A stretch of 64,000 nucleotides of DNA from Hydnum rufescens UP504 (lineage: Eukaryota; Basidiomycota; Agaricomycetes; Cantharellales; Hydnaceae). The DNA lies in NCBI GenBank assembly GCA_014904985.1, contig MU128941.1, positions 10,883 through 74,882 on the forward strand, in the 5' to 3' direction. The notes under the pieces are model-generated. The model did not search any database and had not been told where the DNA came from. It saw nothing but the letters and a program-made list of their open reading frames with translations. A program made the position numbers and the translations under genes. Shown here in pieces: positions 2,869-61,879 of this stretch. Each line of letters opens with the position of its first letter. The stretch's first letter is position 1.

Positions 2869-3830
2869 GGTTTCCCACTTGTTACTTCCAAGTCTCTCAT
2901 GATATTCATCAGAAACACATGTACATAGTAAGATTGTTTTTTCCTGCTGTGGCAAATGCCGATGTTGAGTCTGCCACTATTCTGCTTGTACTCCCATTCA
3001 CCCCAGCTGAATTGTTTGCCCCAACAGCTGAAATCTTGGCTGAACCCATAATTGGGCAAATGGCACTGACAGGGACTGGCAGTTTTGACATCATTCTGGA
3101 CATGCTCAAATACATCGTTGATCATTGCCTTCCAATTCAAAACATACTAGCTGCTCACACTGGTTATGGAGTTGCTATGCCAGGGAGCATGATGCCATAC
3201 AATCCTAGCTCACCTATGTACAATGAGGCATTCAAAGGCAGTGCTGTGGCATTCTTGCCACTTGCTTGGAGTGGTGAAGATAATCCTGCTGGCTTTGCTT
3301 CATACCTGCCAGGCTTCAGTCAGAGTCCATTTGGAGCTGGGTCAGGCTCTGCGTCATCTGGGGCATCTTCCTGCAGCTCCAGTTCCCCAGGGAATCACTC
3401 ATCTACCTCACCTTACACACCCACTTCATTTCGTGGACCTGCAACTTCACCTTTTCACACTCTGCCCTTTGCAACCTCACCTTTCTTCAGTCGATCTCAT
3501 GGTGCCAGAACATTACCAACATCACCAATGCTCAATCTGGCGCTGCTGGTGAATCCTCACTACACCCTCACTTCTCTGACCTTCACCCCAACAAGCCCAC
3601 AGTACAGCCCTCAGTCCTGTCCTTCAGCCCTACATCATAACGATACTCACCTACTAGCCCATCCTTCAGTCCCACCACCCCTCAATATTCCCCTACTAGT
3701 CCATCTTTCAGCCCTGCATCTCCACAATGCTCACCAACATCTCCTGCAGAAGGATCTCCAATACCACCCAAGTACAAGTCACACCCATTGCAAATCACTC
3801 AACAGATCCTTCTCCACCTCTGTGTTGAGC
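2869..3830 (+). pseudogene. RPB1: RPB1 C-terminus and CTD fragment, copy I (RNA polymerase II largest subunit)
   Basis: The frame from about 2,990 reads through the segment that precedes the RPB1 C-terminal domain: IGQMALTGTG, the LDMLKYIVDHCLPIQNMLA-like stretch, SPMYNEAFKG, and GFASYLPGFSQSPFGAGSGS. It then enters heptads ([24 protein letters not shown]). In the real gene this tail is phosphorylated to couple transcription to RNA processing. Here there is no catalytic core, the 5' side is cut by the element ending at 2,868, and a one-base loss after CCTCAGTCC (about 3,611-3,620) throws the heptads out of frame. The same shift exists in copy II at 22,0xx. Interpreted as a captured and amplified host-gene fragment. 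Confidence 0.85.
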
Positions 3831-5844
3831 AGATCTGCTCTCCCCCGCAATGTGCTTGCTCATGGTCAAAGCCGACTGACCATCACTGCTGGATGCCAAA
3901 GCGGTGATCAAGAAAGAATATGTAGGCACTGGAAAATCCTGGAGATAGCAAGGTTTCTCATGTATGTATCATCTGAAATTCTCTTGGAACTGTGTGACTG
4001 ATATGAACATCAAGATTCTCAGCAGGGCATTGCAAAAGCCCAAGCCTTTTTTCACTTAATGGCTCAATTTCTGATTCATGAGAGTCTCATAATATCATGG
4101 TAGCTCAGAGGCACTTTTCCACCATGGCCTTCACAAGCACTATTCATCTTCCACCTAGCAAACCAACAACCCCATCTTTGCAAACAGAATTTAATCAGGG
4201 CAGTTCACTTGTTCTGGACATTGGGCCTTCTCAGGACCGTCCTCTAGGTCCTAGTATGGCAATATTGAAACCCTCATCTTCTTCCCACTTGCAGATGTGC
4301 TTGTCATCTTCTGTCATTATGGCATGCAGCCAAAGCATGAAAGAGGTCAATCCTCAAAGTAGCCCACTTATCCCTCCTGCATTCCCTCTCCCTCCAATGC
4401 CCCAGTTCATGCAGTCTGTTGTGCCACATGCCTGATCTTACTCAGATTCAACATCTTTCATTACACCCAAATCAAAGAAGTCTTCAATTGAGACATTCAA
4501 GATTGATGCATGGTCTGCACAGATGCTGCCCACCTTTCCCCCTGATGTCCATGTCAGATCCAATATCACTGTGCAGGATGAACAGCAGGAGAGTTTCTCT
4601 ACTCGCAAGAATGCATTGTTCTCATCTCCCAAAGTTCATTCCACTCCAAAGTGATGTCAATACTCTAAGAAGCATTTCAGCCCCCCTCTGTGAGTGAATT
4701 TCTGGTCATTTGACTATGTCACTAACTGATTCCATGACAGATTGAATATTCAAAAGAGTCAAATGTGGAAGGATGAGATCACACTTGCTCTAGAAGAGCT
4801 TGGCATCTTAACCACGGAGGGAGATGATGGACAGCTGAAGATGGCCTACTGCAGTGAGACCCCACCCTGGCCAACAGTCAATTCTTCCACTCAAGATAGT
4901 TCTGCCTCAGGAGCTTTCAGCAGTGGGAGAAGAGTGCCTCCTTCTCTCAACCTCCCACCAATTGACACACACTTCAAAGCTTTGGGAAGTATTCAGAACC
5001 TCATTGCTGAAAACACCAACTCCCATGCCATTATGCGCAACTTCATAGTGCCTCATCCAGATGGCACACCTCTCACCATGGCTGTCCCACAACCTATGAC
5101 TTACAGTTCCCCTAATGTATTCCACCCCCCAGGTTACATTCAAAATCAACAGCAACAACAGTGACCCCAGCTGCATTGCTCAAGTATCATGTATATAACC
5201 TTGAATCTGATCGCTGTTTATTGAGACTCCCTTGTCCCTAGCACCAACAACACCAATACCCAAGGCAGTAGTGCTGCCGTAGCATCAGCTCTTCCTTCAC
5301 ACTTTCGTCCTCCTCTGAATGCTCAGCCTCTCAACCTGGCCACTTTTGCATGAGCCACAGAGCAGGCCATGTCTTCCTTTACCACCTTTCATCGAGGCAC
5401 CTCAGTATTTCCTAATTGAACCTGAGTCCCAGACCTGCAGAGCAGAATGCTCCAGTTGTACAGCATTCTACACCTCTTTGACCCCAGAATCTCTTGCAAG
5501 GCTGGAACTCCAACACACCCAAGGACTTTGCCATGATACAACCGCTTGCAACACCCAGGTGGCCACACACAATGCCTAGATGATTGACCATGCCGTTGTC
5601 AAATGGTAAGACAGTAGAGAAGATGAGACAAGGTGAGGCAGGTGGGTTCCAAGATGAGAACCAAACATTACCTAGCACACCCGGTCCTGGCTCGAGGCCC
5701 CTCAAGTTTGTGTGGTCCCCAACAATCCATATTTATGGGATGATATCCATAATCTGATCCTGTACTTTAGACCTAGAGGAACCCTAAGGAGCAGCCTTGC
5801 TCTAGGCTAATGTACATACTATAACTAAACTATGTCTGAGATGG
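3831..5844 (+). pseudogene. Unidentified host-like coding segment downstream of RPB1 copy I
   Basis: I do not recognise the protein. Open stretches at 4,097-4,435 (Ser/Pro/Thr-rich, with PPSKPTTPSLQTEFN), 4,440-4,650 (SKKSSIETFKIDAWSAQMLP in one frame) and 4,742-5,164 (140 codons, ELGILTTEGDDGQLKMA, SGRRVPPSLNLPPIDT, ending in a Gln run) have clear counterparts on the minus strand at 19,820-21,135. Composition resembles a fungal transcriptional regulator, but no domain is evident. Conservation between copies continues to about 5,840, where the sequence is cut by the LTR-like repeat. Frames change several times, so it is annotated as broken. It may be the natural neighbour of RPB1 or a second captured gene. 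Confidence 0.5.
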
Positions 5845-33279: not shown

Positions 33280-33364
33280 TGTGGCCTTGAGGTAAACCAG
33301 CTAATTGGCCTTAGGTGATACGGTGGTGGTTCCTGTGGCAATGGGGTCCCAATCAGGCCAGGCT

Positions 33365-43632: not shown

Positions 43633-45558
43633 GCCTATGCATTAGTGGTCCAGAAGATTGCCAAGGGTTCCCTAGGCGAACAGGATTTGGCAGAAAGACC
43701 AGCCAGGCAAACAGAAACCGACGAGACCATACAGGAGCCTGAGGAGCCCAATGAATTGTGGGGCCCCAAGACGTCAGAGCCCCCAGATCCTACAACATAT
43801 CGAGAAGAAGACCTGGAAGCAATCGTCGATATCTCCCCCGAGGCGCCCCCGGAAATCCGGAAGCGGACCTTTGCCTTGATCCGCAGACGTATTAAAGCGT
43901 TCGGCTTCAACGACCGTCTGGGAACGCTAGAGACGATAGCCAAAATCCGCTTGAAGGAGGGAGTGGACCCTATTTCTCTGCCTATGTATGGAGGGTCCCC
44001 AGCAAAAAGGAAGGTGATCAACGAGCAGATGGAGAAGTGGATCAGGCAGGAAGTCGTAGAGTCTTCCAAGAGTCCGTGGGGCACGCCAGTAGTCATAGCG
44101 TACAGGAATGGGAAACCTAGGTTCTGTGTAGACTACCGCAAGTTGAATGCGCAGACCATCCCCGATGAATTCCCAATCCCCCGCCAGAAAGAGATCCTCC
44201 AGGCGCTATCGGGGGCACAAGTACTATCAGCAGTGGACGCACTGAGCGGATTTCACCAGATGAACATGGAAGACGAAGATAAAGAGAAGACGGCCTTCCG
44301 CTCTCATTGGGGACTGTGGCAGTTCAAAAGAATGCCGTTCGGACTGCACAACGGTCCCCCCATCTTCCAAAGGCTCATGCAGTCAATCCTATCGCCATAC
44401 CTATGGATATTTACCCTGGTCTACATTGATGATATAGTTATCTACTTGAAATCATATGAAGATCATCTGGAGCACCTGGACGTCGTACTTCAGGCATGTG
44501 AGGAAGCCCACTTGACGCTCGCACCAAAGAAATGCCACTTCATGTATACGTCGATACTGCTGTTGGGGCAGAAAGTGTCGCGGTTGGGCTTGTCTACACA
44601 CAAGGAGAAAGTCTGCGCGGTGGTCGACCTAGCTCGCCCCTCCACCCGTTCGACCTTACAAACGTTTCTCGGGATGGCGGTCTATTTTTCGCACTATATC
44701 CCATTCTACTCCAATCGAGCAGCCCCTTTATTTGACCTACTCAAGAAAGATAGACCTTGGGCATGGGAAGCCGAGCAAGAGCGAGCCTTCCAGGATATTA
44801 AGGAAGCGTTGACTCAAGCCCCAGTCCTTGGCCACCCAATGCAAGGGCTCCCCTATCGTATATACTCAGACACTTCGGACATAGCAATAGGAGCCAGTCT
44901 ACAGCAGGTGCAGCCTTTAGAGCTTAAAGACCTGAAGGGTACAAAACTCTATGAACGAATAAAACTTGCTTATCAGAAAGGGGAGCCCATACCCAAGCTA
45001 GTACGTCAAGCCTCAAAAGCCACGAACGATGTCCCAGACCCAGGGTCTTGGGCTAGCGAATTCGAGAAGACGATCGTTTTCGTCGAACGAGTCATAGCAT
45101 ACTGGAGCCGCTCACTAAAGAGCGCTGAGAGAAACTACTCAGCGACGGAACGAGAAGCCCTGGGAGTCAAAGAAGCCCTCGTCCGCTTCCAGCCGTTTGT
45201 AGAAGGAGAGAAAAATATAATCATCACAGATCACTCAGCACTACAATGGGTGTGAACGTATGAGAACACCAACAGATGACTGGCGGCGTGGGGGGCGGTG
45301 TTTGGTGCATTCCCGGGACTCGAAATCGTACATCAAGCAGGAGTGACTCATTCGAATGTTGACCCCCTGTCAAGGCTAAGCAGAATTCCGCCACACCAGT
45401 CGCCTGTGGAGGATTCAACGCTGTCTCTACCAGCTCCACTGCCTGACCAGCTCCTGCAGGCATGGGAAGCGAACCTGGAACGAATGCCGGCGCAGAAAGC
45501 AGCCTTCTTAATGACGAGGGCACAGTCCAGGACTGTACCCGAATCGAAGGAAGTGTGA
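43633..45558 (+). pseudogene. pol: Element C reverse transcriptase and RNase H
   Basis: In phase with the protease. Palm and fingers are complete: RFCVDYRKLNAQTIPDEFPI, AVDALSGFHQMNMEDEDKEK, FKRMPFGLHNGPPIFQRLM, catalytic YIDD (44,422-44,433), and LGQKVSRLGLSTHKEKV (thumb side). The RNase H block starts IYSDTSDIAIGASLQQ and runs to RNYSATEREALGVKEALVRF and ITDHSALQWV. TGAs at 43,630, 45,253, 45,277 and 45,556 are each explained by CGA to TGA. The polymerase core itself has no stop over 536 codons (43,645-45,255), so it is well preserved. Confidence 0.9.
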
Positions 45559-50431: not shown

Positions 50432-53400
50432 CCATCCACCATGTACTCGAGTACACTTGACAAAAGCATGAAGATGTTTAAAGCTGTGATGGATTCTGTT
50501 TCAAGCGTAAAGGAAACTGCTTCTGCCTGCAAGACCCCAAAGGCCCAGGAGAGTACCAGCCGCACTGCCTACCAAGACTACCGTCAACGTCTATGCCCTC
50601 GCAAGACACTCGTTCTCAATCCGGCATGCAGCACAGAGCGTCTGCACCGGGCTCAACTTGGAAGTTGGACAGAAATACTGGTACATTTGTGGCAGTTGTG
50701 CCAACAGTGCGAAGTACCGAGACATCCCAATCAGCACCCCGTGCCAGTATCTCTAAGCCCTGTTACCAACCGAAATAAGCAGCCTTCCGAGGCCTCTCAT
50801 AGTGCCCATCCTAGTCCATCTATGTTTTCTGGGATTATCGAAGAGGGCTCGGGAACAGGTGGCAGCAATGTTGGCTTGTCCCTAGGGGTGACTGAGCAGC
50901 CATTTGTCATTCGATATCCGATCCATGCAGGGAAGGTCAGAATGAACACTCTGTTGAGAAGAAGCTGTCTCGCCATGTGCGTCAGCGGGCTGCTGCGGCA
51001 CATCGTTGGGATCGGGATGTCATACCTGCCTTGATTCATCCATACATGGAATACATGCGCGAATCACAGCGAGGGCAGGTGCCTTTGGACTCTCCATCAA
51101 TCCATTGCTCTTGTACTGGTCATACAGTGTTGAAACAGGTGATTGCCGTATATATGGATCATGAGTACATGGTATATACTTGCTTGGACCAGAACTGACC
51201 ACCTTTGACTTAGGCCTAGACTATATTGAACTCTGCATTTGCCCCTGCGCACCTGCCCCTGTGCAGCTGGTGAAGTGGGGTCTATTTCCCTGCTCACCAG
51301 TCCATCCAGCCCTTGCTGTAAGCCTTGAAATGCTGGAGTTCGTGTCCGAATTATTCGTGCATTTGGCTCCAAATGAGGCAGCATGGGCAGATACGCTAGT
51401 GAAGTTCTTAGCCAGGTGGGGCCATGTATTCAAAGCCCAGGATTCGCTCTGTCGATGATTTGGTTCTGCTCTAGCCCAATACCAGGTCTTAGTGCACGTT
51501 GTTGATGCTGAAATCAACAAGCAGATCAGTGTTGCTTGCCATGAGGTCCTATCTCATGATCCTGCTGACTGGGACAACGTTGCTCCGGAGACGATAGTGC
51601 TGCCCAAGCTTGATGAATCCACACCTATAACAGCTCGATTGTATGTCAGTGCACGTACTGATGGCCATTCCATTTGGGAGCCCACCACTTCTACAATGAA
51701 TGATCTCATTGAAGGAAGTGCAAATGAACCCACCACGTCATCACTACCCTTAGGCTCATGTAGTGGTCCCAACCCTTGTGTTACTCCATCTGACTATCTT
51801 CGCTCACATTGCCCGCTATGCTTTGGAGCACGTAACAAAGCTGGGGACAGCAAACTGTGAGTAATGCATAATATATTCTTATGCTTGTCTTACTGATATA
51901 CTGGTTATGTCTTTTAGTCCAGAGTTCTTCTTGTGCCTTGATGCATGCTTTGCCATCCGACGAAACAAGGACTATGATCGTCGTCCAGGCTGCAAAAAGC
52001 AACCAGGCAGCCAAGATCCTTGTATTATTCTGCCAGGAACTCGTGAACTACCCCGGAGCTTCCTGGAAGCATGGAAAGCAAGGGTGGAGGCAGCACGCCC
52101 TGTCAAGTCACACAACCGTCATACTACGCGTGTGTCTAAGAAGGCGAGTATGCAGCCGATGTTGCAGATACTGAGGATGACCATGTTGAGCTGGGGTTGC
52201 ATGTCCCAAACTCGTACCTTGATAGCTGTGGCGAGTCTTTCGTGGCTGCTGATGGAGGGAGAGTGAAGACTCCTGGGGGGCACTTCTGGACACTGGTGTG
52301 ATGGCAGGTGTTTGTCGTCATGACCGAGTCATTGTCTGGGGCAATATGTGGACACCCGGTGAGCAGCAGTTCTATGCACTGGCCATAATTGACTTTGTTA
52401 TGGCCCAGCTGCCTGTAGACTGGCGAGTTGGCATTCTCTATGATGTCGGCTGTCAAATTCACCGAAGTGCTCTCAAGTGGAACCTGGTACCATGCTGGAT
52501 ACCCTGAATCGATATTTGGGATTAGTGTATTCCATGCATATGGCCATCAGTGGGTATGCCAACTGTGGTATCATCCTCAGGAAAAGTGACGGCTGGGGTC
52601 TCACTGATGGAGAGGGTTGTGAGCGTCTTTGGAGTGATCTCTGGCGCCTCATTCCGAACCTCCGTGTTGCTGGTTTTCATCGCCGATTGTTCCTCTTGGA
52701 CGTCCAGATTGAACACCTGGACCATTCAAAGATGTGTGAAGCTGGTGTCTGGTTGGAGAAACGAGTTAAAGCAACGAAGGCATCGGCTTGCTCTTGTTGA
52801 GGAGAAAAGAGCTAGGATCCACTACAGCAACGAGTATCTGCAGCTGCAGTTCAAGGAACAACGGGCCTATCAGAGCCGACCCCTGGAGCGACAATCAAAG
52901 AAGAAAGGCTTCCACGCTGTTGAGAAGATTCTATCTGTCCGTCACCGTCTATACGTAGCTCAAGATCTTGTTGATGTTCTTCAGAAGCAACTACTGTCTG
53001 TACCAGTATCGGACACTGTTGCCAGCCGGAATGAAATTGCGGAGATTACATCTGCACTTGTTGAGCAGGAGAAAGTTGTTGTTCGGCTGTCAAAACAAGA
53101 TGACGATTTGACGGCAGTCCTCAAGCTGGGAGACCCCATGTCATACGACAATCTTATGAAAATGAAGGAGCACCCTTGGTTTGAACACCAGCTCAATATG
53201 TGTGCTCTGAAGGCACGTATCATTGCCAAGGCCTGCCAGAAGAATTTCGAGATGGACAATCTCACTGGTGCCTTCAGGAGCAAAGCCGTCAGTGAGCAAC
53301 CTATACTAGGTAGAAAGCTTATAATATTTTACTAATTAGCGTTGTTATTTTAGACCACAATACAATGGAACATACCAGCAAGGCCTTGAAACGGCGCTAT

Positions 53401-54234
53401 CGCTCTGTCAAAAGCCTTGTTGTGGATTACAATAAATGTCGTCAGAGCATGATCAAACTCCGTGGCCGGCGAGGGATTCCTCAGAATGCAGTCATCCCTC
53501 CCCCCATCGACATCAAGGGTCTTTTCAACCTTGATGTGGACAATGACATCTGGCAGGATGTTGGGCTTGTGGATGACGAGTTTGAGGGGAAGGTGCCGCC
53601 TTGGCTTGGTGATGAAGATGTCCAAAACAGCATCCGATTTGTTCAAGAACTCACAAATTGTCGTGATGAGCTTTCTCTCTGTGAACGGGAGCTGTACTCA
53701 TTGCAGCTTTGGTTTGAGGAAGAATCTGCGGCACTCATGGCAGCTTTGGGGGCTTGCAAAGGTGAGGAATTGATATTTCCATTTGTTGAATAATCTGCTG
53801 ACATGGCCTGTCCTATAGGGGACCCTGATGTACATTTCCTCATGCTAGAGCGTGTCCAGTGGCTTACAGACTTGGGCAGGAGGTGGGAACGCTCAATTAA
53901 TACTTTGTGCCCAACAGATGTATCGGACGGACTGGATGCACCTGATGCACAGAACACCCTCAGCAAACCTCAGTTGGATCGCATGACTGTTTTAGCAGAA
54001 CATGCTGGGATCCAACAACAGACAAGGCAACCTCTAGATGTTCTCCACAACCCGGATGCTGAGGAGAGTGTGGACAGCTCTGATGATGAGGAAGACTTTG
54101 AGCTGGAACCCGCTCCCATACCCGGGGATTCTGCCCTCATTGCTGCCATGGACTTGGTTGATAAGAATTGTTCAAGTGATGGAGGGAATGAGGTAGATAG
54201 CAGTGATGAAGAGGAATCTTCTAATGAGTTATAA
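50432..54234 (+). pseudogene. KDZ transposase (CxC1 type), main part
   Basis: Continues 38,551-38,729. In order: VIPALIHPYMEYMRES, the cysteine cluster (CSCTGH.., LCICPCAPAPVQLVKWGLFP), MLEFVSELFVHLAPNEAAWA, CPLCFGARNK joined by a 61-bp intron (51,857-51,917) to FLCLDACFAIRRNKDYDRRP (first Asp), GVCRHDRVIVWGNMWTPGEQ, GILYDVGCQIHRSALKWN (Asp), VFHAYGHQW, GWGLTDGEGCERLWSDLWRL (Glu). The C-terminal half has two short introns (53,310-53,353; 53,762-53,818) and ends in an acidic tail. Frameshifts near 50,965, 51,180, 52,285, 52,490 and 52,585 make it a pseudogene, in addition to the retrotransposon insertion. Confidence 0.88.
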
Positions 54235-54450
54235 GTTTTTGTAGTACCTACAGGTTTGTACATGACCTTGGAAAATAATTATTGGTTTGAAGTTATTTTC
54301 CTAAGTTATTTTCTGGGGCCCCTAGCGGTGAACTTACAAAATGTATGGCCTTTGAAGTTGGTTCCGAGGGGCCCCAGGCCTATATATCTAACTAGATGGT
54401 TTGAATGCAACTCTCATTGTATCTAGTTAGACATAGATAATTGGCTGACC
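54235..54450 (+). repeat. 3' end of the CxC1 KDZ element
   Basis: Contains GGGGCCCC segments, an inverted repeat TATCTAACTAGATGG..CATTGTATCTAGTTAGA (54,380-54,425) and GGCTGACCAGCCTG (54,437-54,450). The same succession closes the left hairpin array at 2,725-2,868, and GGCTGGTCAGCC opens the foldback element at 33,365. Taken as a shared terminal module. Confidence 0.6.
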
Positions 54451-55049
54451 AGCCTGATGCAGTCTGGGAATGGTGGAAGAACTGGGAATGCCTGAAAGCC
54501 ACCGGAAAGGATGACCTAAGACAAAACTAAAAGTCTGTACCAGCCCTACCTCCTCTTTCTTGGCAACAGGGACTTCATCAAGGGAGATTGAGGATCTGAT
54601 TTACGAGCCAAACGAATCAGCGCAGAAATGAACAGACCTGGAAGTTGCCACAACATGAGAAGGCACCCTTGCCCACTTGGAACTTGTAGGATCTTGAGTG
54701 ATCAAAAGCCAGAAAACACTCAACAACCACACAGGCAGTCTAAGGAGAGTTGACACAAGCCCCCTAGACTATTAGATCTGTTAAAATCATCACCTCTGAT
54801 CTCCTGGCTGCGGTTTCTACAGAAATTCATGCCCATGATAGATACAAGACTCATTCACACTCAGGCATCCCCATTGCCACTCAACAAGCCCCTATCAGCA
54901 TGGCATAGATCCCTCCTGATGCTCAGAATGATCAGGAAGGTTCTAAATACACTAGGAAGATATAAAGGTGTTGTCTGTGCCCAAGAACCATCAAACAGCA
55001 CAACCGAAATAACTCCTCATTTGTCCAAACAGACCACTACCACATAACC
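54451..55049. other. No gene seen; TATA box near the right end
   Basis: No frame of note. AAGATATAAAGG (about 54,956-54,967) with a C/A-rich stretch (AACAGACCACTACCACATAACC) before the ATG at 55,050 resembles an LTR or promoter leader. Confidence 0.35.
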
Positions 55050-55715: not shown

Positions 55716-56049
55716 GTACCCCCCCTTTAAAGCATGGAGCCCTTGGAGTGCCTTATTTAAGGGGTTGAAAGTGAAAGAAGAAATAGGAGAGAATGAGGAA
55801 TCCCCAAGAGGGCACCTCAGTCAGCCACTTAGAGGGGCCTTAATAGGTATGTCAAACTGCATCAAATCAAAAGCTTAAGAGGCATCAAAATCCTTTGATA
55901 TCAAATAATTTCAAGAGGGTGACCTTAGGTCAATCCATAAGTCTGCCCATAGGCATTTTGATATTAAACTCATATTTGGCTGGGGGTATTGGGGTAGGTC
56001 CCAGCAAGCCCGGGAATGCCCCCAAGTGGGTCAACGGGCTATATGGGCT
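55716..56049. other. No gene seen
   Basis: The first 15 bp are the purine tract of the LTR (minus strand). The rest has TTTGATATCAAAT-type short palindromes (55,890-55,980) resembling 60,490-60,620, on the other side of the hairpin array. The similarity suggests the array sits inside a repeated host sequence. Confidence 0.35.
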
Positions 56050-56329
56050 TATCAGCAGCTAAATTATCTTATTGTTTATTCTCATCAATAATTATTAATA
56101 TTATACATATTTCCCCCTGCCTACAAGGGGGGGTTGCACCCAGCAGGGCCATGCCCCATCTGGTGGCCACACCCTTCATTTTACCCACGCATTTCATCTG
56201 GGGGCCATTCTTGCAGGTGTTTGGTCGGCGGGGTTGCGGGTTGCTTCGTTCAGAGTCATGGGGGTTGCTTCGTTTGGGGTTGCGTGTTTTGGTTGGCCAA
56301 GAGTTGGGGATGGCGCAGGTAGTGGGCAC

Positions 56330-56442
56330 CTACGTTAAATAAAGTACTACCTTAGTAAAAATAAAAATAAAAGAAAACCAATGCAAAAGGAGCAGCCTAT
56401 GCTGCTCCTTTTGCATGGTCAGACATGTACATATATACTTAC
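56330..56442 (-). other. Hairpin intron, left arm 8
   Basis: Donor GTAAGT (minus) at 56,442, acceptor GTAG at 56,330. Stem ATGCAAAAGGAGCAGC, loop CTAT, 56,381-56,416, perfect 16-bp pairing. Confidence 0.62.
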
Positions 56443-56645
56443 TTTCAAGATTACCACACACCCACAGTAGCAGGTGTGTGGCTCTTTATTTCCTCTGCAG
56501 CTTCATGTGTGCGTCCTCATTCCTTCACCCATTTTCATTCTCATGGCAGTACATGTTCGTACACAGGCTTTTGTTGGCAAGTGGAGGGTGAGCAGGTTTG
56601 GGCTCATGGTTCTGTGGTTCACACATTGGGGTGGGGCATCTTGGC

Positions 56646-56743
56646 CTAGAATAAAAGATAAGTTAGTTTAAAAAAACTTGCGCAAAAAGAGCAGCGACTG
56701 CTGCTCTTTTTGCACATTTGTAGCTATTGACAAAATACATACT
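56646..56743 (-). other. Hairpin intron, left arm 7
   Basis: Donor GTATGT, CTAAC box, acceptor TTCTAG. Stem-loop at about 56,679-56,714 (GCAAAAAGAGCAGC, loop GACT). Confidence 0.62.
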
Positions 56744-56935
56744 TTATGTGGCCACACTCCCGCTGCAGCAGGTGTGTGGCTCCCTCATTTTCCCTGTGGC
56801 TTCAGGCATGCATTGTCCTTCGTTCATTGGTGTGTTCATGCGTAATGGGGTGTGGGGCTTCGTGGGGTCTTGGTGGGTCTGCGGGTTTGGGTTTGTGGCT
56901 GCGTGACTTCGCGCATTGGGGTGGGATATGTTGAC

Positions 56936-57037
56936 CTAGAATAATATATGTTAGTTGGAATCAAAGGAAGCAGTGCCAGAAGAGCAGCAGTTGCTGCTCT
57001 TCTGGCATGGTTGTACATCTTATAATAAGAAACTTAC
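56936..57037 (-). other. Hairpin intron, left arm 6
   Basis: Donor GTAAGT, CTAAC box, acceptor TTCTAG. Stem-loop 56,974-57,007 (TGCCAGAAGAGCAGC, loop AGTT). Confidence 0.65.
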
Positions 57038-57199
57038 AAGGTATTACCACACACCTGCTGTGGTGGGTGTATGGTATGAGATTTTGTCGATAGTTGTATT
57101 CGGGGCCGGGTACTTGGGGCTTGGGCGGCTGTGTGTTGAGTTCCATGCTGGGGGCTCGGCCATGTCCTCATCAGGCAGGTTTTCATGTAGGGAAGGCAC

Positions 57200-57308
57200 C
57201 TAGAACAGTGAAGAATAATACATCAATAAAAAAAAAGTAACAGAGGGGTGCCAAAAGAGCAGCTTCTGCTGCTCTTTTGGCACCGGTGGGATTAGATGTA
57301 CCCGATAC
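57200..57308 (-). other. Hairpin intron, left arm 5
   Basis: Acceptor TTCTAG. The donor is less certain (GTATCG). Stem-loop 57,247-57,284, 17-bp perfect stem GGTGCCAAAAGAGCAGC. Confidence 0.55.
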
Positions 57309-57468
57309 TACCACACACCCGCTGAAGGGGTGTGTGGCACTGTATTCGATTCGTTGTCACATAGGTTTTGAGGGTGGGGGTCTTCCGTAGCTGCATGCAT
57401 GCCCGTATTTCGCCCTGGGCCTTGTCGGTGCATTCCTTGGGCAGGGGTTTGGCAGAGGGGGAAAGAGT

Positions 57469-57575
57469 CTAGAATAATAAGATGTTAGTAAAAAAAATAA
57501 CACAAACAATGCCAAAAGAGCAGCTAGTGCTGCTCTTTTGGTGTCGTGGTACACCGCGTAATGAAGGAAACTCAC
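57469..57575 (-). other. Hairpin intron, left arm 4
   Basis: Donor GTGAGT, CTAAC box, acceptor TTCTAG. Stem-loop 57,511-57,542. Confidence 0.63.
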
Positions 57576-57754
57576 CTGATAGTGCCACACACCCACTGAA
57601 GCGGGCATGTGGCACCGTATTCGATTGGTCATTGTGTAGGTTGTGGATACTTGAGGGTCAGGGTCTTGGGTGGCTGTGCACGTGCCCGTATTTCATTCTG
57701 GGCCTTGTTTATGTATTCTTCAGGTGGGTGGGGTTTTGCGGTGGGAGAAAGGAT

Positions 57755-57851
57755 CTAGAATAATAAGCATGTTAATAAAAAAAAGAATCCCAGCAACGCC
57801 AAAAGAGCAGCTGGTGCTGCTCTTTTGGCGTTGTAGTAATAGAAAACTCAC
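57755..57851 (-). other. Hairpin intron, left arm 3
   Basis: Donor GTGAGT, TTAAC box, acceptor TTCTAG. Perfect 18-bp stem (CAACGCCAAAAGAGCAGC) at 57,794-57,833. Confidence 0.63.
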
Positions 57852-57999
57852 CTACACACCTGCCGGAGCGGGTGTGTGGTATCGTATTGGTGGTTGTGGT
57901 GGTTGCGGGCGTTCCAAGGCTGGGCTTTCGGGTGCCAGCATATATCGGTATTTCACCTCGGGCCTCATCTGTGGTGGCTTCAGGGGGGGGTTCACACAC

Positions 58000-58090
58000 C
58001 TAGAATATTAGCAAAAGAAAAAAAAACACCAAAAGAGCAGCTAGTGCTGCTCTTTTGGCATGTCTGAAACCATTAAAAAACAATACATAC
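58000..58090 (-). other. Hairpin intron, left arm 2
   Basis: Donor GTATGT, acceptor TTCTAG, 91 bp, the shortest of the arm. Stem-loop at about 58,029-58,059. Confidence 0.62.
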
Positions 58091-58256
58091 CTTATATGGC
58101 CACACACCTGCTGAAGCAGGTGTGTAGCTCTCTGTTTTCCCACTCTTCGTCATGGCTTCCTGTGGGTGTTGTTGTTGTTCATTCGTTTGCTCATTTGCTC
58201 ATTCATGTGCTTCCGTTCATGTGGTCATGTGCGGGGCATGGGTGGGACAGCTTGAC

Positions 58257-58369
58257 CTAGAATAGTAAATAAAAGCATTAGTAAAAAAATTAAAACCTGC
58301 ACAAAAAGAGCAGCTTTTGCTGCTCTTTTTGCGCTGATGTAGTGACTAGGAATTTTTTTTAAAACTCAC
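58257..58369 (-). other. Hairpin intron, left arm 1 (nearest the palindrome)
   Basis: Donor GTGAGT, CTAAT box, acceptor TTCTAG. Stem-loop 58,299-58,333 (GCACAAAAAGAGCAGC, loop TTTT). Confidence 0.63.
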
Positions 58370-58458
58370 CTCGTATGACCACACACCCACTGCAGCAGGT
58401 GTGCGGTTGTTTACTTGCCTTCTAGGCAGCTGTCTGCTCCTCGTTCGGTGGGTCATTG

Positions 58459-59144
58459 CATAGTTGCTAAGTGAGGCAACTTAATGCCAGCAATTGCCAG
58501 GATCCAAAAAGCACCCAAATGCTTGGTGCCACGAGTGCTGTATGAATTAGAAGCAAGTAACTAGGTGTATAATAAATAATAAATAAATCATATTTCCCAA
58601 AAAAATAAAGAAGACCATGACAATACTCAGAGTTCAATAAGGCATGATATGCTGCATTGAAAAGTGGATTGGGCAATTTGTACGGTTCAGAATCAGCCCA
58701 AATTTGAATATATTGCTGGCATACATGACCCCCTACATGGGCAATTAATTATTTCGGACACTCCCTTCATTTTTCAATTTTTTGTGCCCTCAATTCCCTA
58801 TTTAGGGAATTGAAGGCACAAAAAATTGAAAAATGAAGGGAGTGTCCGAAATAATTAATTGCCCATGTAGGGGGTCATGTATGCCAGCAATATATTCAAA
58901 TTTGGGCTGATTCTGAACCGTACAAATTGCCCAATCCACTTTTCAATGCAGCATATCATGCCTTATTGAACTCTGAGTATTGTCATGGTCTTCTTCATTT
59001 TTTTTGAGAAAATATGATTTATTTATTATTTATTATACACCTAGCTACTTGCTTCTGATTCATACAGCACTCATGGCGCCAGGCATTTGGGCACTTTTTG
59101 GATCCCGGCAATTGCCAGCATTGAGTTGCGTTACAACTACGCAG
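58459..59144. repeat. Central palindrome (foldback) of the divergent array
   Basis: Inverted repeat with arms of about 342 bp and a 2-bp loop at 58,801-58,802 (CAATTCCCTA TT TAGGGAATTG). The inner 200 bp are almost perfect; the outer 100 bp have scattered mismatches. Both ends carry GCAATTGCC(A/G)GGATCC-type sequence. No transposase frame is present. The left array is in minus orientation and the right array in plus, so both transcripts would start in or beside this palindrome. AT-rich TTATTTATTATTTATTATA on each arm could serve as a bidirectional core promoter (inference). Confidence 0.75.
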
Positions 59145-59205
59145 CCACTGCCCAACAAGGAAATAGACGACCACACACCCGCCGCTGCGGGTGTGTGGTC
59201 ACTAG

Positions 59206-59305
59206 GTGAGTTTTCTTGTAGTAGCTACAACAGCGCAAAAAGAGCAGCAAAAGCTGCTCTTTTTGTGCTGCTTTGAACTTATTTACTTACACACCCTGGT
59301 CCTAG
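59206..59305 (+). other. Hairpin intron, right arm 1
   Basis: Donor GTGAGT at 59,206, acceptor CCTAG ending 59,305. Stem-loop GCGCAAAAAGAGCAGC..GCTGCTCTTTTTGTGC at 59,234-59,269. Confidence 0.6.
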
Positions 59306-59816
59306 GTACCAGTTGACAACCAGCCAAACAATGAGGGCCCCAATGGGACCATGTCAGACAAAGAAAACCACGGCAACATGATGAACACAACGACCGCAAT
59401 GACCACAACGAACGCAACGACCACAGCAAATGTGACGAATGCGACGAATGCGACGAACATGGCGAATGCGACGACAACAGACGACAATGGGCCCAGTGAG
59501 CGACAGCATGAACCACACACCTGCCATAGCGGGTGTGTGGTTCTCTATATGAGATGAGTCCTCCCCCCCCCCAATGTCCCCAACCGCACAAAAAGAGCAG
59601 CAAAGGCTGCTCTTTTTGTGCTGGTTTTAATTTTAATTAATCTTATCTTTTATTGTACATGATCAAGGTAAAAACTCACCCAGTGACAACCCGGGGATAC
59701 GCCCAACAACAACCCAGCCCCAGAACACATACAAAGGACAACCCGTGACACGGACAAAACAAAAATGTGGAAACCCCATGCACCACACACGCTGAGGCAG
59801 GTGTGGTGATTTTGAA

Positions 59817-59934
59817 GTAAGTACTCTGGCTACCGGTACTGTCACACAAAAGGAGCAGCACCAGCTGCTCCTTTTGTGTGACTTTCCTCTTGTTTTATTT
59901 ATTTTTTCATTAACTAACACTGTTATTTTTCTAG
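59817..59934 (+). other. Hairpin intron, right arm 3
   Basis: Donor GTAAGT at 59,817, CTAAC box near 59,915, acceptor TTTTTCTAG ending 59,934. Perfect stem TCACACAAAAGGAGCAGC..GCTGCTCCTTTTGTGTGA at about 59,841-59,881. Very similar to the left-array intron at 2,171-2,275. Confidence 0.65.
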
Positions 59935-60434
59935 ATCTGCCCACAACGCCAGACCTGCCGCCCAAAACCCCGCAATCCCAAACCTGCCGAGTGAAACCCC
60001 GCGACCCCAAGCCGCTGTGGGAACAATGACCCACAAAACAGATGAAATGAAAGTGCGGGAACTCCACCACACACCCGCCTTAGCGGGTGTGTGGTGATTT
60101 AAAGGTAAGTACTTTTTTTCTTTTTCTTTTTTCACTAATGCTTTGTTATCCGAGCCCAGAACCAGTGACAATCCCCCAACTTGAAACTCACATGAACCAC
60201 GAACCGAAGGTCCACTGAACGAAATACAATGCCCAGGAATAACAACCCACGAAACAGATGAAATGAAAACACAGGAAGCCTGTGCACCACACCCACCTTA
60301 ATGGTGTAAGATAAGGTCTTTTTTATTGTTGTAGATACACTCGCACAGAAGGAGTAGCTGTGGCTACTCTTTCTGTGCCCTGTGGATGTATGTAAATAAT
60401 ATAGATAGTAATAAATAAATAAATAAATAACAGG

Positions 60435-61879
60435 CTGGTCAGACACTTCCATTGATCTCAAAAGGCATGTCATTTTGATGTTTGTATAGGACCTAATAGG
60501 CCTGTGTTCTCTTTGATATCAAATATTGATCAAAAGGGGCCTTTATATCGAACAAGTGCAGTTTTGACATAGTTTTGACATCAATTTGAGATCAAAGTAC
60601 GGACTTGAACTTTTACTAGGCTTTATTTGAGATCAAAGTACAGACTTGAGAATTCTGTTAGGCTTTATGCAAGTTTGGCCATCTGTCATTCATCCAATCA
60701 ATCAAAAAATTCGCAATGTTTCCTCAATTAATTTATCTTATATCCACATCGATCACCAGATTCTTAGAATATATAAAGTTTTGCACAATACAACTACTAT
60801 ATTTTCTGGCGTCTATTCATGAACATTATGTTAGATGAGCTATGGATTGATGGATCCACAGAGACGAATTATGCAGTAGTCATGACTAGGTTTATAGCAC
60901 TGAAAGCATGTCCAACAAGAGCCACACAGTAACTTAGATCGTGCAGCCGCGTCCATCACAGAGATCGAGCACCGCACGGTCTATCGAGTGCAGGTCAGAG
61001 GTTCGTGGTGCGCCGGAGGCGAGGGAATGTCAGAGTTCATATGGGTCCTCATTAGTGGCTGCTGAGGCGCTGCGCTAGCTCTGGCCCCTCATGATCTTTG
61101 GTCGCTCGGATCGAACTTACTTCTCTGTTCGGTGTAGCCAGATATGTTATGTCGCTTCACCCTGTGATGTACTTTCTTCCCTGGTGGCTTCCTTCCTCCC
61201 GCCCTGCTTTTGCCTGCTTTCTCACCATGGGCCTTGGTCCTTTTGGGTCCTCTGCGCTTGCTTGCCTGGTCCCCTCGTTGCACGCCCCCCTTCTGGCTCT
61301 CCGCTTCCTGCGGCGCTCGCTCCCGCCAGCCCCCGACGGTTGCGCTGGATTAACCTTTCTCCCTCTTGACAGCTTAATTCAGCAGCAGACTGTCTGTCGA
61401 ACAAACACCACTCGATAAACGCGTCAGCTCATCAGTCTTCTTTTCCTTGATAGTACCCTCCAAGCGCTGGAATACAATAAAGCCATCCCTCACGCTGGAC
61501 TCTCTTCTTTGCCCTTCTGCACATTGTACCAAAATTGCTTGCTGTAGACATACCCCTTACAATACAAATATCCTATATCCACATCACTCGAAAAATAAGC
61601 AGTCCTTCAGATTCTCTTTCTGAGATTAAGGGTTGCAGTCAGGATATGATCCTTTCAATTGCTGTGGCACCTTATGGTCTGAGAATGGTCGTGAACAACA
61701 TCGCTGCCTATGGTATACCTCATCATTCTGTCCACCCTTAACACTGGTCCAGTAAACTAACTCGATAGAAAAAAGCGAATTCCACCAGCTTCATTTCAGC
61801 CTCTCGACATACGTCTTTGTGCTTGACCTCAAGTCAGTCCTGGAGCCACTTCCCATTCCTACTTGCTTTTACCTGATCA
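60435..61879. other. No confident gene
   Basis: 60,580-60,660 has two copies of GAGATCAAAGTACNGACTTGA. A GC-rich block (60,940-61,420) carries overlapping open frames on both strands (92-106 codons) with Pro/Leu/Arg-rich content and no recognised domain. 61,440-61,880 is AT-richer, with no frame I can support. It may be the decayed downstream part of the KDZ fragment that follows. Confidence 0.4.

Follow-up and report, generated by a model that had tools for sequence, protein, structure and literature searches.

The stretch of DNA considered here, 64,000 nucleotides and hereafter called the window, comes from the ectomycorrhizal basidiomycete Hydnum rufescens UP504 (Cantharellales), whose genome sequencing is reported in PMC7550596, and corresponds to C33:10883-74882 in the assembly that was searched (63,185,524 bases in 539 contigs). 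Within it a divergent array of short introns, each with a hairpin, had been picked out from the sequence alone. The array, arranged about a palindrome at 58801, proves to make up the body of a transposon; neither fact was visible to that sequence-only reading, nor were the limits of the element, which begins at window position 55813 and breaks at 60430. The region itself is a single broken copy of an element dispersed through the genome. On balance it seems probable that the element is a large non-autonomous cut-and-paste transposon whose cargo is a divergent pair of spliced, structured non-coding RNA genes, with the hairpins guiding splicing. The fuller version is held only tentatively, namely that the entire cargo would be a bidirectional spliced structured RNA, with tetraloop-capped hairpin introns, a recurrent AT-AG subset and several thousand such introns in one genome.

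The left border at 55813 is common to the window copy and six others, and the same comparison identified a right part that the window copy is missing. A genome-wide query with the left terminus gave at least 40 matches (the best 40 of 124 candidates). The element starts with CACCT... and finishes with ...CAGCCTG, and an intact copy of 7219 bp lies at C33:110352-117570 within a perfect 8-bp target duplication (ACCACAAC, found by eye and by script), with a further perfect 8-bp duplication around the C244 copy (GGAAGAAA, by eye); in all, two of the seven end pairs compared (C33, C244, C188, C73, C34, C41 and C357) have one. The intact copy holds about five intron hairpins either side of its palindrome. 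Longer copies also exist, those on C34, C41 and C28 having a second palindrome, which on C41 has arms of about 970 bp, is centred near C41:152419 (L009) and lies to the right of the array. The C41 and C188 copies carry one extra hairpin unit near the right end, and a query including this unit gave at least 40 matches (the best 40 of 179 candidates), as did the first right-arm unit (the best 40 of 2091 candidates).

A search of the rest of the genome for the units had been suggested, and it found the strict intron hairpin at 4306 places and the strict exon hairpin at 3539, with none in the reversed control for either; both patterns are palindromic and each place matches both strands, so these are counts of places. 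Only two hairpins in the window and the loci examined are isolated by more than 1500 bases from any other, at window 1915 and L036:1989. The strict intron-hairpin pattern was also scanned against IMG/VR, where six viral contigs (L050-L055) gave one exact place each; these are thought to be unrelated to the element and are perhaps terminators.

The window copy has twelve intron hairpins between 56376 and 60390, with stems of 13-19 bp and 4-nt loops. The distinct second hairpin noted at the exon ends is also real, it occurs in eleven copies in register over the same interval, with a twelfth near 57311-57337 that falls in another repeat family. The strict intron-hairpin pattern matches the window 11 times and 100 shuffles of it not at all, the strict exon-hairpin pattern 11 times against a shuffle mean of 0.06, with ten of these in the array and the other at 2133. 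To the left of 58801 the splice signals lie on the minus strand and to the right on the plus strand, the arrays pointing outwards, and the arms of the central palindrome (58590-58800 and 58803-59013) are 97% complementary, the outer pair 88%. The short segments with a donor, a branch box and a TAG acceptor could be placed as ten introns (Table 1), three of which agree with those given earlier. Two of the generalisations made about them need qualifying: a hairpin had been expected in every intron but the putative intron at 60105-60159 is without one, and donors of the GTRAGT type are found in most of the window introns but AT replaces GT at 59554.

How general these signals are can be seen from 261 intron hairpins of the window and loci L009-L041. 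With GTGTG motifs excluded as donors, a full set of donor, branch site and acceptor is present on exactly one strand in 155, on both in none and on neither in 106, the units with AT donors belonging among the last; at random positions one-strand sets occur in 321 of 4000, so the fractions are 59% and 8%. If GTGTG motifs are counted the figures become 218, 4 and 39, with GTGTGT or GTGTGC making up 77 of those 218 donors, and these motifs sit in the exon hairpin. Branch site and acceptor alone are found on one strand in 217, on both in 17 and on neither in 27. Taking 216 hairpin pairs anchored on the exon hairpin, the units have a U2-type pattern of GTRNGT donor, CTRAY-type branch and YAG acceptor in that order, the donor being GT in 154, AT in 38 and CT in one, with 23 having no donor-like sequence. 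The donor mostly starts 7, 9 or 11 nt past the exon hairpin, and over 174 units the medians are 104 nt for intron length, 27 nt from donor to stem and 38 nt from stem to acceptor. Branch site and acceptor are kept in 140 of the 154 GT units, in 34 of the 38 AT units and in the single CT unit. The AT units are found again at corresponding positions in diverged copies, that of window 59554 included, and it is possible that they are AT-AG introns or that their donors are weak. The forms ATGAGT and ATAAGT are seen, mostly with an intact branch site and TAG or CAG, for example at L019:4268-4285, L026:2874-2891 and window 59554.

It had been said that the exons do not keep a reading frame, and this is borne out by the 113 internal exons of the loci examined, whose lengths leave remainders of 0, 1 and 2 on division by three in 35, 33 and 45 cases. 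Their composition is A 0.33, C 0.32, G 0.22 and T 0.13, and they contain 0.47 open frames per exon, compared with 0.39 when shuffled and 1.12 on the reverse strand. Coding exons were rejected on these grounds, the frame not being kept and open frames being near the shuffles and below the reverse strand. A decayed protein-coding gene with tandemly duplicated exons would explain the modular exon-intron structure and why, in ten arrays, the T-poor exons when joined run for 93-142 codons without a stop, but the exon lengths and open-frame counts speak against it here too, as does the lack of any frame longer than 149 codons without a stop in the intact copy (214 at most in three further copies), and such an origin is very improbable indeed.

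Both stems had been described as drifting by compensating changes, which holds for the intron stem and fails for the exon hairpin. Among 214 unique intron hairpins whole pairs have changed from A-T to G-C in 38 and 26 and from A-T to C-G in 25, and three strongly variable pairs covary above all 200 shuffles, which supports structure. The variable pairs of the exon hairpin are CpG sites; where both have decayed 21 are compensated, 10 are double wobbles and 13 double mismatches, not far from the 2:1:1 ratio that independent CpG decay would give, and compensatory change was therefore rejected for this hairpin. Single decays there gave 37 wobbles and 22 mismatches.

The loops carry a signal of their own, strand having been assigned without use of loop sequence. 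Among 230 oriented intron hairpins, a GNRA loop is read on the splice strand in 76 and on the opposite strand in one, or in 126 and three when A is allowed at the CpG-prone first position. Clustering at 70% identity over at least 110 bases gives 58 clusters, with sense GNRA in 16 and antisense in one, and a purine as the modal first loop base in 54; a 150-base threshold gives 72 clusters, 20 of them sense and one antisense. The left arm of the intact copy has TTTC on the plus strand, which is GAAA on the splice strand, in four of five loops, and its right arm has GAAA once and AAGA four times. UNCG loops in the exon hairpin are found in 25 of 150 on the sense strand and in four on the antisense, 71 and 37 if CpG decay is allowed. 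As the preference follows the splice strand it points to structure at the level of RNA, and folding of six introns as RNA gave z scores of -4.6 to -6.9.

This bears on the idea that the hairpins are palindromes in DNA, serving as binding or cruciform sites for a transposase, for replication or for a chromatin protein, with the splice-like signals a by-product. The palindromes are perfect with few intermediate states, they lie inside a DNA transposon, and the exon hairpin has at most the slight excess of wobble over mismatch given above. However the loop preference is specific to the splice strand, the splice signals are strand-exclusive and conservation is higher in the donor than in the stems; whilst a protein that binds hairpins of single-stranded DNA could still read one strand, we regard a role of this sort as unlikely.

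Conservation was taken as the mean major-allele frequency over 47 aligned arms from 24 centres, low values being in part alignment failure; the centre pattern matched 27 times in the window and loci, with 24 used, the window copy among them, two that appear to be chance matches and one at a locus edge. The donor is the most constant part (0.976), followed by the exon stem (0.94), the intron stem (0.91), the conserved part of exon 1 (0.87), the central arm (0.84) and both donor-side linkers (0.83), with the variable part of exon 1 at 0.62 and exon 2 at 0.54. In these 24 the arms of one copy are 70-96% alike. It could be argued that the module is neutral, a single ancestral hairpin intron without function having been multiplied by tandem duplication and transposition; whole units do resemble tandem duplicates, the copies show CpG decay and the intron stems have few intermediates. 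That donor and stems are better conserved than the exons, and that branch site and acceptor are kept about equally in AT and GT units, makes such neutrality quite unlikely.

The sequence-only reading had offered a spliced non-coding RNA or introns acting as a source of mirtron-like small RNAs, and only in part can it be upheld. The first, still a prediction, is supported by the strand-specific splice signals and tetraloops, the conserved donor and the lack of a coding signal. The second is weak. Intron hairpins, or long double-stranded RNA from the palindrome, might feed Dicer to give mirtron-like or milRNA-like small RNAs; there are perfect stems in thousands of copies, the central palindrome would give a long hairpin if read through, and the genome has Piwi-domain (Argonaute) gene pieces (8 matches). 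The usual Dicer or mirtron substrates are, however, longer than the stems found here with their 4-nt loops, and the ends of a mirtron hairpin lie at the splice sites, but here the hairpin is inside the intron. Rfam gave no family at gathering score; at E up to 1 there were 32 matches, all below gathering and mostly of miRNA models on the palindrome, which is what any perfect hairpin would give, and a tRNA search gave none. Production of small RNAs is accordingly considered improbable.

The element's identity as a transposon can be approached through its right end. The right-terminal 36-mer occurs at 58 places genome-wide with up to three mismatches and at none in the reversed control, and transposase domains of the KDZ (Kyakuja-Dileera-Zisupton) type are abundant, with at least 154 matches (the best 150 of 584 candidates scored); both lists are lower bounds and the KDZ list is incomplete. 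Comparison of the two puts a KDZ match about 1.5-1.6 kb inside at least 10 of the 58 right ends, all reading toward the terminus (C2, C87, C111, C120, C135, C143, C157, C221, C232 and C373), the terminus having two mismatches in nine and three in C221. On C232 (L056) a 455-codon open frame closes near 1368, and homology to the array element starts at 1431, with the end of the element at about 1625; the terminal 123 bases are 98% identical to the array element, the whole common part is about 195 bp, and no hairpin units were seen when this stretch was read directly. A query from about 150-350 bp inside the end of the array element did not return the ten KDZ loci among the best 40 of 113 candidates. 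The right termini are common and the bodies different, hence the usual relation between autonomous and non-autonomous elements, and as the intact copy has no frame for a KDZ transposase it can be at most a non-autonomous member.

The termini are of the form 5'-CA..TG-3', with a CACC start on the left and a CCTG finish on the right in the listed ends, the borders being fixed by the duplications in two copies. hAT elements also produce 8-bp duplications, and with hAT domains present in the genome a hAT origin was considered; a hAT-domain match lies inside one of the 58 ends, at another distance, compared with ten for KDZ. Zisupton and Dileera, in the part available of PMC12730594, have 8-bp target duplications, and Kyakuja has 7-bp duplications and CA..TG ends without terminal inverted repeats. 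The array element is like the first two in its duplications and like the last in its ends, and it has its right terminus in common with KDZ-encoding loci; it differs in the intact copy having no transposase and in a body where hairpin introns form two arrays running outwards from a palindrome. It is probably a non-autonomous KDZ-type transposon, a membership that is likely although not complete.

With the transposon and RNA readings combined, a scheme may be proposed in which a KDZ-family transposase most likely moves the element in trans. Two non-coding RNA genes would face away from the central palindrome and be transcribed outwards, their promoters lying by inference in the palindrome (58471-59134), and each gene would be a tandem array of one duplicated exon-intron module. 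The exon of the module would be the A/C-rich part, ending in a GC-rich hairpin for which UNCG-type loops are favoured, with the donor usually 7-11 nt further on; the intron would be T-rich, about 104 nt long and have a central hairpin with GNRA-type loops favoured, with the branch site and then TAG behind it. It is most likely in the nascent RNA that the hairpins work, as organisers of splicing. The one in the intron would loop out its middle and so bring donor and branch site together; the one in the exon would mask a GUGUGU that resembles a donor and lies in its 3' arm, while the true donor, a short way beyond, stays outside the stem. Splicing would then yield an RNA made up of A/C-rich linkers and capped hairpins. 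In Cryptococcus, according to the part available of PMC7763443, transcripts whose splice signals are suboptimal become stalled in the spliceosome and are a source for RNA interference (RNAi). The present genome has its Piwi-domain gene pieces, and the benefit to the element may be that regular, well-marked introns make its transcripts look like host RNA and spare them RNAi coupled to splicing.

A number of observations sit awkwardly with this account and have to be set against it. The hairpin units are related by descent and the counts are not independent. AT donors in 38 of 216 units and no donor in 23 ill suit simple efficient splicing, 18 of the 23 donor-less units still having an acceptor, and the AT donors argue against the simple form of escape from RNAi. 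The nine oriented hairpins of the window copy have no GNRA loop, only loops that start with A. Two pairs of the intron stem, -11 and +6, are not above the shuffles, the changes in this stem are almost without intermediates, and its covariation could also be explained by a few ancestral variants or by palindrome-templated correction. Conservation of the donor-side linkers is only a little below that of the stems, and alignment is poor between hairpin and acceptor (0.705). As regards the transposon, five of the seven end pairs have no matching 8-mer; of the 21 ends that match exactly and are of the array type, none has a KDZ match on the list within 2.5 kb inside; homology to the KDZ loci is seen at the right end only, right ends being what was compared; and the C292 right end has its hAT-domain match 0.8 kb inside.

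A literature search found no description of such a structure among the papers it listed, and three known systems besides the KDZ elements offer partial parallels. Introners are likewise repeated introns tied to non-autonomous DNA transposons, some families having target-site duplications or terminal inverted repeats, but in the part available of PMC9860276 they enter many genes, unlike the exon-intron modules here, which are in tandem inside one mobile element; this contrast had been drawn beforehand and stands for the sequence examined. Mirtrons are also short introns that hold a hairpin, however in the array units the stem is short and, at the median distances given, does not span the intron. 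In Foldback-type elements the inverted repeats lie at the ends. Such elements, Galileo for example, do combine large inverted repeats with tandem repeats, in the part available of PMC4168063, but in the array element the palindrome is central, and splice signals and loops of RNA type are found in the repeats. Should the introns prove to be spliced, a single genome would offer more than 4000 natural variants of one intron, their stems, loops and donors all defined, and thereby a ready-made test of how the fungal spliceosome is guided by RNA structure; the AT donors, if used, would make up a set of AT-AG introns of unusual size. The element would then also be a transposon able to multiply introns without host genes, and as such would bear on the origin of new introns and on how transposons meet splicing-coupled RNAi.

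Table 1. Features of the broken element copy and its right-hand neighbour, in window coordinates
Feature	Position	Strand	Remarks
Left terminus of element, CACCTCAGTCAGCCACTTAGAGGGGCC	55813..55850	+	Left end shared by copies on C34, C41, C455, C101, C17 and C188, where the flanks differ
Intron GTAAGT...TAG	56330..56442	-	Intron hairpin 56381-56416; exon-end hairpin 56454-56481
Intron GTATGT, CTAAC, TAG	56646..56742	-	Intron hairpin 56682-56713; exon-end hairpin 56752-56779
Intron GTAAGT, CTAAC, TAG	56936..57037	-	Intron hairpin 56974-57007; exon-end hairpin 57047-57074; fold z -6.0
Intron GTACAT...TAG (donor by eye)	57200..57301	-	Intron hairpin 57247-57284; exon-end hairpin ~57311-57337
Intron GTGAGT, CTAAC, TAG	57469..57575	-	Intron hairpin 57512-57541; exon-end hairpin 57585-57612; fold z -4.7
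Intron GTGAGT, TTAAC, TAG	57755..57851	-	Intron hairpin 57794-57833; exon-end hairpin 57852-57879, abutting donor
Intron GTATGT, CTAAT, TAG	58000..58090	-	Intron hairpin 58029-58058; exon-end hairpin 58100-58127
First intron of left arm, GTGAGT, CTAAT, TAG	58257..58369	-	Intron hairpin 58302-58331; exon-end hairpin 58379-58406; fold z -4.6
Central palindrome (centre CAATTCCCTATTTAGGGAATTG)	58471..59134	.	Centre 58801; inverted repeats I1 and I2; contains both first exons
Exon-end hairpin of first right-arm unit	59171..59198	+	Stem mean major-allele frequency 0.94, 47 arms
First intron of right arm, GTGAGT...CTAG	59206..59305	+	Intron hairpin 59231-59270; fold z -5.6; donor region 0.976 over 47 arms
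Second right-arm unit	59513..59683 (end approximate)	+	Exon-end hairpin 59513-59540; AT donor ATGAGT at 59554; intron hairpin 59586-59621; acceptor side degenerate
Intron GTAAGT, CTAAC, TAG	59817..59934	+	Intron hairpin 59841-59882; exon-end hairpin ~59782-59808; fold z -6.9
Exon-end hairpin and putative short intron without hairpin (by eye)	60067..60159	+	Exon-end hairpin 60067-60094; putative intron 60105-60159
Degenerate last unit	60287..60430	+	Intron hairpin 60343-60378; copy ends at 60430 in AATA microsatellite, other copies continue
Right-end-type terminus, CAGGCTGGTCAGACACT, inverted orientation	60431..60595	+	75.8% to right end of C41 copy over 165 bases

The inverted terminus that directly follows the break may belong to an adjoining or nested related element, or may reflect a rearrangement. 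Other parts of the window hold related pieces. A second array fragment at 1700-2866 has hairpins at about 1906-1940 and about 2202-2232 and an exon hairpin at 2133-2160, and near it, at 2850, there is a minus-strand terminus, CAGGCTGGTCAGCCACT, whose exact core is also found on the plus strand at 33359. The open reading frame at 52550-54456 is 31.6% identical over 174 amino acids (E 2e-17) to the C-terminal part of the C232 KDZ transposase and has a terminus-like sequence on the minus strand at 54440, it is probably another KDZ element immediately to the left of the array element. The stretch 43645-45255 encodes the reverse transcriptase and RNase H domains of a retrotransposon (Pfam RVT_1 and RT_RNaseH).

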